Below, piece by piece: positions 14,939 to 53,971 of a stretch of DNA of 64,000 bases (the first letter of the stretch is position 1; every line of letters begins with the position of its first letter). This DNA is from Bythopirellula goksoeyrii (GTDB lineage: Bacteria; Planctomycetota; Planctomycetia; Pirellulales; Lacipirellulaceae), in contig NZ_CP042913.1 in NCBI RefSeq assembly GCF_008065115.1, forward strand, positions 3,219,827-3,283,826, read 5' to 3'. The translations under genes were made by a program, and so were the position numbers. Below the pieces are notes generated by a model. The model had not been told where the DNA came from, searched no databases, and was given only the letters and a program-made list of their open reading frames with translations.

Positions 14939-15012
14939 CGCGGGGTGGAGCAGCCAGGTAGCTCGCGAGGCTCATAACCTCGAGGTCGTCGGTTCGAATC
15001 CGGCCCCCGCCA
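14939..15012 (+). tRNA. initiator tRNA-Met (CAT anticodon)
   Basis: A full cloverleaf can be folded: acceptor CGCGGGG with CCCCGCC, D stem GAGC/GCTC, anticodon stem CGAGG/CCTCG around loop CTCATAA, five-base variable loop AGGTC, T stem GTCGG/CCGGC with loop TTCGAAT. Initiator marks are the unpaired position 1-72 (C x C instead of the E. coli C x A), the A11-U24 pair and G-C pairs at 30-40 and 31-39. The third pair of the usual three-GC run is A29-U41. The discriminator is A and the CCA end is not encoded. A 25-bp exact copy of its anticodon arm occurs 39 kb downstream. Confidence 0.95.
14967..14991 (+). repeat. 25-bp direct repeat, copy 1 (inside initiator tRNA; candidate att site)
   Basis: From GAGG of the anticodon stem through the first strand of the T stem. 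The identical 25 bases recur in the same orientation at 53947-53971. The anticodon stem-loop is a frequent crossover site of tyrosine recombinases in tRNA genes, so this could be an attachment core. Confidence 0.6.
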
Positions 15013-15450
15013 CTTTTGATAGGTCTTTGCTGAACAACCTTTTGTGGTGACCTGTTGACGTCGGTAGTGCGGCTTTTTTTCAACGAATAATGGCAAGTTG
15101 CTACTTCTGGCAGTTGAATGCGAAGTCTCATTATGTCGTTATCTAAAACTTCAGCGATCTCCAAGTATTGCCGCCAACTATCCAAGGATATTCGAGAGAG
15201 TTTCTCGCTTAATCTAGTTGGTTAGTTAGGAGCCGAGTGAGATGAAAAGTGGCTGGCCTAGCGATATCTCAAAGCCCAGGTTGCCAACTGGATACAGATC
15301 GTAAGATCTGGTCCTGGGTAAATGCACCTGCTACACTGAGACCTTGAATGGTCTAGTCTGTCTTGCCAGGCATTCCGTCAAGCAGAGCATATTCTTCTCA
15401 TCACTTTTCAGGGGGCATTCGCTCCCCTAGCATGAGGGCTCTTGGCAGCT
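15013..15450. other. 438-bp interval between tRNA and sugar-binding gene
   Basis: No supported gene. GTGCGGCTTTTTTT near 15067-15080 could be part of a terminator for the tRNA but lacks a strong stem. No integrase gene or remnant, which one would look for at the tRNA-proximal end of an island, is recognisable here. Confidence 0.35.
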
Positions 15451-16488
15451 ATGAAAATCGAACGTATCGCCCTGTTGGCAATTCTTGTGGCAGCATCCGT
15501 TGGAGTCATGCTGTATCGCACCACTGTGTACGATCGGCCTAAAACCACGGTGCAACCGAAGTTCGCGGTGATCACTGGTGGTTCGGGTCCTTACTGGCAG
15601 GCCATTGCATCCGGGGTGCAGTCTGCGGCTCGCGATCTCGACGCTGAAGTTGACGTTCGCATGCCCGATCACGACGAAGACTTGGAAGCGCAATCGAAAA
15701 TCATCACCGATTTACTAGGGAACCAATACGATGGCGTCGCGGTCAGCCCGCTCGATGCCGAGGCGCAAACCCGCTCCATCAATCGTCTAGCCGATCATCT
15801 CTTTGTGGTAACGATTGACTCCGACGCCCCACTGTCAGCGCGGCTGGGTTACGTGGGAGCGAGTAACTTCGCAGCGGGTACTAAATGCGCTGAGTTGACC
15901 AAGGAGGCGGTGCCAGAAGGTGGCATGGTTGCCGTGCTACTTGCCAATCTGTCAAAAAGTAATATGAAGGATCGAAAATCCGGCTTTGCGCAGAATCTTA
16001 TCGGTGGAGACGATGATGAGGCAACTTCCAACGACACCTACGAGATTGTCGACTTCTTGATCGACGAAGGTGATAGCGAGCGTTGCGCAAATCAAATTCG
16101 GCAAGTGCTCAAAGAGCATGACGATTTAGCTTGCATAGTCGGGCTGAATTCTCGTCACGGGCCCATCCTGTTGTCGGTCCTCAAAGAAGAGAACAAACTC
16201 GGCGACATAAAGCTAATAACATTCGATACGCCTGAGGAAACGCTCACCGGTGTCGAGCAAGGGCACATCTTTGCTACGATCGCGCAAGATCCGTATCAAT
16301 ACGGTTACGAAGCTATTCGGCTGCTGACATCGTACTGCAACCGTCCGAAGGAGATGCTCCCACCGCCTGGCCTCGAGAGCTCGATGAACATCAAAATCAA
16401 AGTGGTGCGAGCGGAAGACGTTGCAAGCTTTCGGGCAGACTGGCAGAAGCGGACACAGGAAAAACCGATACCTGCCAAGCCATCATAG
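15451..16488 (+). CDS. periplasmic sugar-binding protein (RbsB-like, Peripla_BP_4)
   Basis: Substrate-binding protein of the ribose/galactose ABC type. An N-terminal hydrophobic segment (about residues 5-23) serves as signal or anchor. The two-lobed fold is recognisable from KFAVITGGSGPYWQAIASGVQ, the DGVAVSPLDAE hinge block, VVTIDSDAP, and LITFDTPEETLTGVEQGHIFATIAQDPYQYGY near 260-295. It begins best at the ATG at 15451; a TTG at 15442 is the alternative. No ABC permease or ATPase lies nearby, so it is an orphan that may serve a transporter elsewhere or a sensor. It is the first gene after the initiator tRNA. Confidence 0.85.
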   Translation: MKIERIALLAILVAASVGVMLYRTTVYDRPKTTVQPKFAVITGGSGPYWQAIASGVQSAARDLDAEVDVRMPDHDEDLEAQSKIITDLLGNQYDGVAVSPLDAEAQTRSINRLADHLFVVTIDSDAPLSARLGYVGASNFAAGTKCAELTKEAVPEGGMVAVLLANLSKSNMKDRKSGFAQNLIGGDDDEATSNDTYEIVDFLIDEGDSERCANQIRQVLKEHDDLACIVGLNSRHGPILLSVLKEENKLGDIKLITFDTPEETLTGVEQGHIFATIAQDPYQYGYEAIRLLTSYCNRPKEMLPPPGLESSMNIKIKVVRAEDVASFRADWQKRTQEKPIPAKPS

Positions 16489-16791
16489 ACTGCGGGTATC
16501 CACTGCTCCTATGGTACTTCCATGGTGGTTTGCATCCAGAGATGTGGACCACTGCCGTCGACCGGAGGCAAGGGCCGAACGGCGTTTTCTGGCGGGCTAC
16601 CAATTTGCCTGGTACAATTCAGTATCAGCAGCAAGAGTGCTTGAAGCGTTTACGATTCTATCGCTTCCTATGTTTGCCTGATAAACTGGATTAAATGGAG
16701 CTGCTCCTCAAAGTCACGTGCATCCAGGATATATTGTCTTGAGCGGCTAGAAATCATTCGGACAATTTTTGACGTAGAAGTAGTTTAGAGC
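16489..16791. other. 303-bp interval without gene
   Basis: No supported coding frame. Presumably carries the promoter of the LamG gene at 16792; no clear boxes or hairpins seen. Confidence 0.3.
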
Positions 16792-17937
16792 ATGAAGGCA
16801 TACCTGTTATTTGGAATCTGCAACTGTGTGGTTTTCATATCAGGCGTGCTTCAAGCAGCAGTCCTCCCGAGCCTTCAATCTTCTTTGGCCAACTATTATT
16901 CGTTTGACCGCCCTCTTGGAGGCAATTTCGATTCGCTGATCGAGATCGACTTGGGTACTGACCAGACCAATATTGCCCTCCTCAACGGGGCACCGCGTAT
17001 AGCCGATGCTGCCTGGAGCGGAAGCACTTACTCTCTTCAAACGGGCCAGAATAGTGATACTTTAAGCAATGATGATTGGAAGGCGGGCATTCAGTTTTTA
17101 TCCTCTGCAGAATCCACTTTGATTGGCACTAAACATGTTACCGGCATTTCTTTGATGGGTTGGTTCAAACCCTTAGGCAATCATTTCGATAATCCCAGTC
17201 TCAACACGAATACGCCCGCAGGTGAGGATAGGTACAACGCTTTCGGGCTGTTCGGTCTGTTGCGTGGCGACGAAAACTTAGGAAATACCGATGGGCACGC
17301 CGTCCGTGCATTGCTAGAAGTGATTAACGATCGAATCACAGGCCTGGGACGACGGCTGGACTCTCAACCAGGCTCAGGTTCCATTCGATCGGTAGAGCGT
17401 TGGGATCAAATCATGATACCCGGTGAATGGTGCCATCTGACGGCAACATTTGACTTCGATCGGGGCGAAGTGGCACTCTATAAGAATGGACTGCCCATCG
17501 AGACCGAAAACCTGAGTGTTGGGAACTGGGATCTAACCGAAGGAATAGACTATACCTCGAACGAATCTGCGGGAGGAATCAAGATTGGCGGGAGCTTCCC
17601 TGACAACTCCCAGGAACGAAATCCATTCAATGGTCTCATCGACGAGTTGATGGCCTTCAACCAGTGGCTAACGCCAGACCTCGTATTGGCGCAATATCAA
17701 TTAGTCAGTGGACTGCCGGGCGACTTGGACGGAGACCATGACGTCGATGGCGCCGATTTTCTTCAAATACAACGTAGTAGCCCACATTTACTGTCCTCAT
17801 GGCAAGAACAGTATGGCATCGGAATCGAGCCACAAGCTTCGGCAACAAACGTCCAAGACTCTCTGGCCGCTCCTGAACCATCAGGAATCTGTCTGGCCTT
17901 TCTCGCTATGCTAATACCAATCGCAGTTGGTCGATAG
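16792..17937 (+). CDS. secreted LamG-fold protein with dockerin-like repeat and degenerate PEP-CTERM tail
   Basis: Predicted exported lectin-like protein. It has a signal peptide (about 1-22) and a concanavalin-A/LamG-type domain (about 30-300) with blocks such as ISLMGWFKPLG, GEWCHLTATFDFDRGEVALYKNG and FNGLIDELMAFNQWL. Next is a single dockerin-like calcium loop, GDLDGDHDVDGADFLQIQR (about 305-323), and a C-terminal APEPSG plus hydrophobic helix ending VGR. The sorting tail is weak: it lacks the usual RRRR end. It stands 141 bp before the PL11 lyase in the same direction and could help bind the same polysaccharide. Confidence 0.75.
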   Translation: MKAYLLFGICNCVVFISGVLQAAVLPSLQSSLANYYSFDRPLGGNFDSLIEIDLGTDQTNIALLNGAPRIADAAWSGSTYSLQTGQNSDTLSNDDWKAGIQFLSSAESTLIGTKHVTGISLMGWFKPLGNHFDNPSLNTNTPAGEDRYNAFGLFGLLRGDENLGNTDGHAVRALLEVINDRITGLGRRLDSQPGSGSIRSVERWDQIMIPGEWCHLTATFDFDRGEVALYKNGLPIETENLSVGNWDLTEGIDYTSNESAGGIKIGGSFPDNSQERNPFNGLIDELMAFNQWLTPDLVLAQYQLVSGLPGDLDGDHDVDGADFLQIQRSSPHLLSSWQEQYGIGIEPQASATNVQDSLAAPEPSGICLAFLAMLIPIAVGR

Positions 17938-18078
17938 AGACTTTTGACAATCTCAATAGCATTAGCGCATCTTCTCCTTTAGGATGGGCAATGGATGGAC
18001 TACCATGGAGTCATATTCCGGTGCCTCGATAGCGGATAGTTCGTAAAGATTTCTCTCTCCTCTCATGCGAGTGTTTCA

Positions 18079-53529: not shown

Positions 53530-53645
53530 TTCAAAACACGTTCTAAGGCGAAAAATGCGATGTTCGCACGCACCAACATCGAGTAAGCGCTTTGTTATGA
53601 AGTGAAAGCCGACTTTAAGAAATGCGTTCGCCTGAACTGCATCAC

Positions 53646-53744
53646 TCACCTAAGTACTCGTTTACGCAGCATCTCGTTTTCGGCCTTCAAGAACTCAATC
53701 TGGCGACGGAGGTCGTCTTCCGAAGAAGCTGCCAACAGGAAAAG
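53646..53744 (-). pseudogene. N-terminal fragment of an integrase-core-type transposase
   Basis: Short reading LFLLAASSEDDLRRQIEFLK followed by AENEMLRKRVLR and a stop. The DDLRRQIEFLKAENEMLRKR coiled-coil is the familiar start of IS3/IS481-like transposases in planctomycetes. Only about 32 codons remain; it abuts the second 135-bp repeat. Confidence 0.6.
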
Positions 53745-53878
53745 CAACGGAGAGAATCAGTTTGACATGCAGTAGGCTTTCTGGCAAAAAGTGCGAGGAA
53801 ACCCAGGTGACGAGCTTTCTGAACAGCTGCGGTTGGCCTCGATTCTCGAAGGTCAGCCAGTACAAGCAAGCAATTGCC
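53744..53878. repeat. 135-bp perfect direct repeat, copy 2
   Basis: Exact match to 51831-51965. Copies 1 and 2 flank the complete IS at 236 and 214 bp. Just beyond, GCCAAAGAAGTAG at 53883-53895 is the inverted copy of a 13-mer at 52003-52015, another mark of past rearrangement. Confidence 0.85.
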
Positions 53879-53946
53879 ATGGGCCAAAGAAGTAGTAAAA
53901 TGCTCTAACTGCTTACGTGTGAGTGTCTTAGCTCGATTAGTGGTGG

Positions 53947-53971
53947 GAGGCTCATAACCTCGAGGTCGTCG
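53947..53971 (+). repeat. 25-bp direct repeat, copy 2 (initiator tRNA anticodon-arm fragment; candidate distal att site)
   Basis: GAGGCTCATAACCTCGAGGT plus CGTCG, identical to 14967-14991 inside the initiator tRNA gene. The rest of a tRNA (acceptor, D and T arms) is absent on both sides, so it is a fragment and not a second gene. It ends 29 bp before the start of the membrane hydrolase gene. Confidence 0.85.

Follow-up and report, generated by a model that had tools for sequence, protein, structure and literature searches.

Islands in tRNA genes, tandem arrays and the use of secondary sites are each already known, as the accessible part of the literature shows. Integron cassette arrays consist of directly repeated recombination sites and are anchored at one end, and the sublocation of sites within tRNA genes is reportedly the subject of work by Williams from 2002. 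In the available portion of Islander (PMC4383910), 2083 sites are centred on the anticodon and 1836 lie in the T-stem region. According to the accessible text of PMC2297512, SGI1 forms tandem arrays, with thdF as its primary site and sodB-purR as its single secondary site; the available part of PMC8371274 also deals with secondary sites and with cleavage at the borders of the loop. Here, we describe a locus of Bythopirellula goksoeyrii at which an initiator tRNA-Met gene and a copy of an internal piece of the same gene bracket 39 kb of DNA with a pectin-degradation cluster. The stretch that was analysed, in the following referred to as the window, comprises 64,000 nucleotides (contig NZ_CP042913.1, positions 3,219,827 to 3,283,826). 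Coordinates refer to the window unless a genome position is given, and G, C and L numbers are our handles for genomes, contigs and loci. We consider it likely that the window represents a decayed occupant of an integration hotspot at the initiator tRNA gene.

The starting point is an exact repeat, whose two 25-bp copies are identical, lie on the same strand and are 38,980 bases apart; about 2e-6 such pairs would be expected by chance in 64 kb of random sequence. The first copy is located within a tRNA gene that ARAGORN recognizes as tRNA-Met(CAT) at 14939-15013 and Rfam scores at 58.2 bits. Its C1xC72 mismatch, read from the sequence, marks it as the initiator type, and the only full-length match to it in its own genome is the gene itself. 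The initial annotation had described the repeat as exact, equally oriented and not credible as a chance match, with one copy inside an intact initiator tRNA-Met gene, and in all of this it was right. The features at the two ends of the bracketed DNA are:

14939-15013, plus strand: intact initiator tRNA-Met, the attachment gene (attL side), found by ARAGORN and Rfam
14967-14991, plus strand: first copy of the exact repeat, corresponding to tRNA positions 29-53
15013-15083, plus strand: remnant of an integrase leader (P' side), from alignment to the leaders of relatives
53847-53950, plus strand: arm region (P arm) of an attachment end, from an arm profile and flank identity
53947-53971, plus strand: second copy of the exact repeat; the 21-bp core within it is 53951-53971 (tRNA positions 33-53)

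Three further copies of the 25-mer, with one, two and three mismatches, are present in the same genome (6.47 Mb, one contig), as is a tRNA-like 3' half at genome position 4321822. A reversed control of the 25-mer, searched with up to three mismatches, had no match in this genome. Many unrelated copies would have spoken against the island originally proposed; copies do exist elsewhere, yet they are related ones, and two of the three have their left flank in common with the distal site. In the tRNA of the window and in the tRNA genes of relatives, the anticodon stem reads CGAGG/CCTCG, with two G-C pairs of three; bacterial initiator tRNAs usually have three G-C pairs in this stem.

The DNA around the initiator tRNA was fetched from 20 relatives, with tRNA loci of up to 20 kb. 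In 14 of them, the first downstream gene encodes a tyrosine integrase, for which we use the name IntM; the proteins comprise 312-461 residues (mechanical open reading frames), and the frames start 87-223 bases past the first tRNA base. A PF00589 match was found in the two IntM proteins that were scanned, and pairwise identity among the 14 ranges from 28 to 73%, with a median of 49%. As for the other six relatives, G016 has a 95-residue IntM fragment, the contig of G008 ends too early, and G010, G023, G027 and G040 are without IntM. Apart from IntM, the downstream genes have little in common between genomes. The positions of tRNA and IntM are also adjacent in G047 and G038, which belong to other families of the order, and IntM beside the tRNA is found in nine genera and four families. 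Of 117 genomes of the order, 53 contain IntM relatives at E up to 1e-50, the position relative to the tRNA having been checked in a minority of them. The 3' side of the initiator tRNA gene is thus an integration hotspot in these relatives, in line with the earlier view of this gene as a place of integration.

The leader between tRNA and IntM is common to the relatives and contains a hairpin-like motif. The window keeps this leader behind its tRNA, with IntM itself lost. The best alignment of 15013-15083 is to the leader of the congener G004, at z = 8.9 and with none of 500 shuffles as good. Taken over the leaders of all 14 relatives with IntM, z lies between 0.9 and 8.9 and reaches at least 2 in ten, and the leader-keeping G016 and G008 give 2.5 and 3.4, compared with -0.9 to 0.8 for six leader-free controls. 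A leader profile search yielded a weak match (8.7 bits, E 0.095), which is still the best in the window and lies at the right place.

At the distal end, the core is followed leftward by an arm, a remnant of an rve-type transposase (c1), a second insertion sequence and a second arm fragment without core. Besides the arm and core listed above, the features here are:

51831-51965, plus strand: copy 1 of an exact 135-bp repeat, comprising the right end of a DDE insertion sequence and the start of the arm region (repeat search)
51966-52085, plus strand: arm region with TGCTAA-type repeats and the core missing (flank identity; weak profile hit at 52028-52060, E 0.1)
52201-53529, minus strand: insertion sequence with 20-bp perfect inverted ends and a DDE_Tnp_1 transposase reading frame (52228-53430), inserted into distal debris
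53655-53822, minus strand: N-terminal remnant of c1 (Pfam, comparison with other sites)

An arm profile built from other genomes matches 53847-53920 with an E value of 5e-4, the best of its eight matches in the window; the second (E 0.025) falls inside the insertion sequence on the opposite strand and is probably due to chance. The flank 53847-53950 is 89% identical to the flank at genome position 3876879, where an integrase gene ends (3' end) about 30 bases away from the far side of the core; 51884-52052 resembles the flank of another site, at genome position 3882505, with 86% identity. Judged by these comparisons, the distal copy is an attachment end in core-only form, with arm and insertion-sequence remnant to its left, and not a displaced tRNA 3' end. 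Its arm flank agrees with the initial annotation, which had read it as an integration mark; the accompanying idea of a decayed tRNA 3' end does not stand, given that the 21-bp core-only form with edges at 33 and 53 recurs at other sites. The insertion-sequence debris reported for this end, in turn, is present in the shape of the DDE_Tnp_1 insertion sequence and the c1 remnant.

The exact 135-base direct repeat (51831-51965 and 53744-53878) forms part of the two arm copies and has diverged surroundings; it is perhaps the result of recent conversion or duplication. The same DDE_Tnp_1 insertion sequence stands beside two core sites of this genome (window 52201-53529 and L014 16830-18158), and a protein 99.75% identical to the transposase of the window is encoded at genome positions 4249929-4251128. 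At 51580-51820, on the minus strand, a reading frame resembles by eye the C-terminal end of a transposase, presumably of the IS30 type.

The form of the distal copy is shared by many sites. We scanned 21 genomes with the 21-base pattern, allowing up to three mismatches, and added G001; 1.73 Mb were fetched around most sites, with several in G009, G011, G029 and G033 left out. This yielded 56 distinct non-tRNA core sites, 18 of them with the rest of the tRNA following and 38 core-only. A few of the three-mismatch sites, which are kept in the counts, may be chance matches, because a reversed-pattern control gave five matches in the 21 genomes. The 18 sites with the tRNA 3' rest lead directly into a full IntM (7), into an IntM fragment (3), into an IntM about 0.5 kb further on (1, in G000) or into none (7). 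Units of textbook form, in which tRNA, IntM, arm, core and displaced 3' half follow each other with no further leader, measure 11.6 kb in G025 and 38 kb in G049.

Both edges of the core recur from site to site. Identity starts at tRNA position 33 in 45 of the 56 sites, and in all 38 core-only sites it is lost at position 53 (21 sites), 54 (12) or 55 (5). Truncated queries from the left portion of the core revealed no earlier-stopping copies in the fetched DNA or in the genome of the window. Pieces of the right part gave five extra matches with one mismatch (0.6 expected) and three exact 12-mer matches (0.2 expected), with expectations for uniform bases, and these extra matches may be chance in GC-rich DNA. 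Given these searches, limited detection does not account for the right edge, although the DNA searched had itself been selected around sites of this kind.

An insertion sequence accompanies many of these sites. In several genera, an rve-type insertion sequence with a transposase of 355-388 amino acids is found at a fairly uniform distance, about 150-450 bases, left of the core, for example in L144 near 10086 and in L125 near 13183 and 14984. By our test, which misses at least one flank (genome position 3882505) where the insertion-sequence end is visible by eye, c1 adjoins the arm in 23 of the 56 non-tRNA sites and has no match within 2 kb to the left in 28. Its placement looks as if it were homing on the arm region of attachment sites. 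The possibility that the core is the terminus of an IS110-like element was dropped: Pfam assigns c1 to the rve-type DDE transposases, and half of the sites are without it. These sites without c1 show that the core is more than a mere terminus of this insertion sequence.

The sites are also strongly biased towards the tRNA. The count covers 17 genomes and the 47 non-tRNA sites on their tRNA contigs; sites on other contigs are uncounted, and G009, G012, G024, G032 and G034 are left out as fragmented or because the tRNA is not on the same contig. Within 100 kb, 18 sites lie downstream of the tRNA and on its strand, compared with 0.75 expected under even placement, and the other three combinations of side and strand have none; 11 of the 17 genomes have such a downstream site. 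With the limit set at 150 kb, the number rises to 19, and a single site is upstream, likewise on the strand of the tRNA.

These comparisons also bear on the position of the crossover, which was probably in the T stem, near tRNA positions 49-55, with a loosely recognized right half-site and frequent secondary sites. A weak sequence pattern extends past the core: information is higher in columns 62 and 64 than in any of 300 columns farther right, and columns 54 and 60 are near the top, with 4 and 5 of the 300 columns as high. Since positions 33-53 always travel together, identity ends at 53-55 and a weak half-site follows beyond, a crossover in the T stem is likelier than one in the anticodon loop. 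A loop crossover would make the DNA of a secondary site foreign from position 40 on, contrary to the sites seen.

The repeat, the leader, the arm, the edges of the core and the placement statistics are direct observations. The mechanism that we propose builds on them. IntM-type elements would recombine their own attachment site with the tRNA, such that the left end of the element brings tRNA positions 54-75 and the leader and thereby restores the tRNA, while the right end consists of the arm region followed by a copy of positions 33-53. In the window, the left end would survive as tRNA and leader with the integrase deleted, and the right end as arm and core (53847-53971), damaged by two insertion sequences. 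The unrelated DNA past the core would most likely derive from recombination of the right end with a secondary site through a T-stem crossover at about 49-55. The pectin genes would have arrived by this route, which we infer along with the crossover position and the secondary-site event.

A number of observations weigh against this reading. None of the relatives examined has an empty junction, several of their contigs being short. The gene right of the core (54001-55671) has relatives in five of 38 other genomes at E < 1e-200, none of them directly at the tRNA. In G004, G009 and G036 the relative is on another contig than the tRNA. In G017 (G017:C5:1498431-1500053) it follows the tRNA at a distance of about 63 kb, oppositely oriented and 13 kb beyond a core site; this placement may be accidental, or the gene may be part of the same neighbourhood. 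In the genome of the window, the three other core copies are 0.6-1.0 Mb away, two of them with the same flank, and because of them the core at 39 kb could be independent. None of the 23 PF00589 matches in the genome falls in the window, and tblastn found no IntM remnant there, the best match (E 0.06) being outside the island and at chance level; the initial annotation had likewise seen neither an integrase nor a remnant, but the leader of one remains. At the distal site, the displaced tRNA 3' half is absent, and the block 29-53 is followed by unrelated sequence. Base composition is not distinctive, with a GC content of 0.50-0.54 inside and 0.50-0.55 outside (3-kb steps), so that the compositional contrast for which a check had been suggested is hardly there.

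The junctions, too, contain points of this kind. The 38 core-only sites are not all independent, several being related copies, and they stand against only two clear reciprocal junctions, in which foreign DNA is joined to position 54, in 18 genomes; this imbalance is not predicted by simple secondary-site insertion. A third fragment, with tRNA positions 43-75 at genome position 4130298, where no tRNA or transfer-messenger RNA was recognized, is not included among the reciprocal junctions. A simple insertion that splits a gene and retains its two flanks was rejected for G025, where the joined junction pair gave no continuous gene, and the second pair, in G035, is discontinuous by eye. As reciprocal junctions are few and the flanks of the compared pairs discontinuous, the model has to assume subsequent deletions or exchange among cores.

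On balance, we regard a decayed occupant of the hotspot as the probable state of the window, and do not rate it higher because of the missing empty junction, the gene right of the core that is not at the tRNA elsewhere and the three other core copies. It is plausible that 15.0-53.97 kb travelled as a single unit of 39 kb, but here our confidence is lower, at about even chances.

The alternative that survives best, albeit as an unlikely one, is that the distal core belongs to a small independent unit of about 1.5 kb (c1, arm and core), which landed near the tRNA, the 39 kb being ordinary chromosome and the bracket coincidental. A c1 remnant is indeed present at the distal site, c1 and arm are frequently adjacent elsewhere, 11 of 19 candidate left ends are separated from a core by 1.47-1.56 kb, with homology that runs no further than the core, and the other core copies of this genome are far from the tRNA. 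However, in half of the sites no c1 accompanies arm and core within 2 kb, and the bias of placement beside the tRNA is strong across genomes; by our arithmetic, one of four such sites would fall within 39 kb downstream on this strand with a chance of about 1%. The absence from congeners of RGL11, a rhamnogalacturonan lyase of the bracketed DNA, likewise argues against such a unit. This gene and its neighbours, together with the gene upstream of the tRNA, are as follows:

12993-14528, minus strand: gene upstream of the tRNA, with weak Pec_lyase and sub-cut-off squalene-cyclase Pfam matches; stable left side of the hotspot (homologues in relatives)
15442-51479, no strand assigned: cargo, in Pfam scans a sugar-binding protein, two RGL11 rhamnogalacturonan lyases, a Pel9A-like lyase, GH28, two GH43, GH106 and a weak GH95
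15442-51479, no strand assigned: cargo, continued, with a sulfatase, a GDSL esterase, and PEP-CTERM, DUF1559 and GSDH-type proteins

The larger RGL11, the only pectin gene so compared, was searched against 38 other genomes. The 13 congeners have no full match to it, the best (E 1e-14) being among short matches to its C-terminal region. Strong relatives occur in G015, G016, G018, G019 and G023, on another contig than the tRNA or at least 0.25 Mb from it. The comparison of cargo proteins with the 20 tRNA loci gave five matches below 1e-15, all of 24-47% identity and partly to generic families, and none of the 30 open reading frames of the window scanned with Pfam, smaller ones being outside the scan, contains relaxase or conjugation genes. 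For the one gene compared, the patchy distribution and the location away from the tRNA in relatives agree with the accessory character that had been ascribed to the pectin genes, and the family-wide synteny at the tRNA that would have contradicted it is not seen for RGL11.

These data also bear on a further alternative, to which we give somewhat less credence still, namely that the pectin cluster has long been resident in this lineage and was retained here while the congeners lost it, with only the ends being mobile debris. At least two RGL11 genes are close together in G016, G018, G019 and G023, and the GC content is unremarkable, as this would have it; yet the clusters of G018 and G019 are on other contigs than the tRNA, those of G023 and G016 about 0.25 and 0.8 Mb away from it, and a full RGL11 is found in none of the congeners. 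A classical anticodon-loop island, in which the distal copy is a decayed displaced tRNA half, as first proposed, is highly improbable: identity does begin at the edge of the anticodon loop in most sites, and 3' halves exist at 18, but decay would have scattered the right ends, which all 38 core-only sites have at 53-55, and a loop crossover would not carry positions 40-53 into foreign DNA.

A homologue of the gene upstream of the tRNA holds this position in 16 of the 20 fetched relatives and also in L057, the only locus from a scan of genome contigs to have it, where the tRNA is followed, by eye, by a terminator-like sequence and no leader. For the native right neighbour of the tRNA, sought from four element-free relatives, one G040 protein gave two low-identity matches in the G000 stretches examined, and there was nothing else. 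Two strong inverted repeats lie at 12676-12953, between an HMGL-like gene and the conserved gene upstream of the tRNA. At G000:C1:4321158-4323626 (L188), a tRNA-Pro is followed by a truncated initiator-like tRNA 3' half and then by an IntM gene. Judged by eye, the leader of this gene seems to include the 3' portion of a further tRNA, and G004 C3 shares much of the region. IntM relatives may use other tRNA genes too. A tRNA array, with 20 tRNA matches in 2.7 kb, many of them low-scoring, is located at G000:C1:4816282-4818946 on the minus strand.

Searches of the literature on sublocations and islands in tRNA genes, islands of Planctomycetes and secondary sites, in the accessible part and with thin coverage of subscription journals, returned no description of this system, and a search on initiator tRNA and integrative elements found no papers; the available part of PMC9897764 contains nothing pertinent. 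Three traits are unusual and worth following: the internal 33-53 core with its fixed edges, the repeated use of an initiator tRNA, and an insertion sequence that so often adjoins the arms. We tentatively suggest, as a possibility that we hold to be somewhat on the doubtful side, that the initiator tRNA in this family, and probably in the order, anchors arrays of integrase elements with a portable 21-bp piece of tRNA at their right ends. By way of a T-stem crossover, these ends would repeatedly recombine with one another and with sites of weak specificity; tRNA fragments would be spread and the DNA behind the ends reshuffled, making the tRNA a long-lived shuffling site that is also sought by an insertion sequence. 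More generally, an odd repeat has become a testable integration system at an essential tRNA gene, which explains how a pectin-degradation cluster could be stored at a tRNA. Furthermore, the tRNA 33-53 block with its arm offers a sequence mark for decayed islands that integrase-based searches miss, and the footprints at secondary sites allow the crossover to be located by comparison alone.

Among known systems, integrons resemble this one in having an array of directly repeated recombination sites that is anchored at one end, but here the integrases are linked to the elements, the sites are derived from a tRNA and their spacing is in kilobases. With SGI1, as described in the available text of PMC2297512, it shares a site-specific element, tandem arrays and the use of secondary sites; it differs in that a tRNA serves as its primary site and that its secondary sites are numerous and only weakly conserved. 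The closest counterparts are the tRNA islands of Islander, as far as the accessible portion of PMC4383910 describes them. Like these, the window combines an intact tRNA at one end with an equally oriented fragment of that tRNA at the opposite end, and the system as a whole has tyrosine integrases, found here in relatives, and tandem arrays. Unlike these, the window is without an integrase, and its distal fragment is an internal block (29-53) instead of a displaced 3' end, so that by the Islander filters it would probably not be listed. With integrase and displaced tRNA end missing, the window is not a standard member of the tRNA islands, but it works like a remnant of one.

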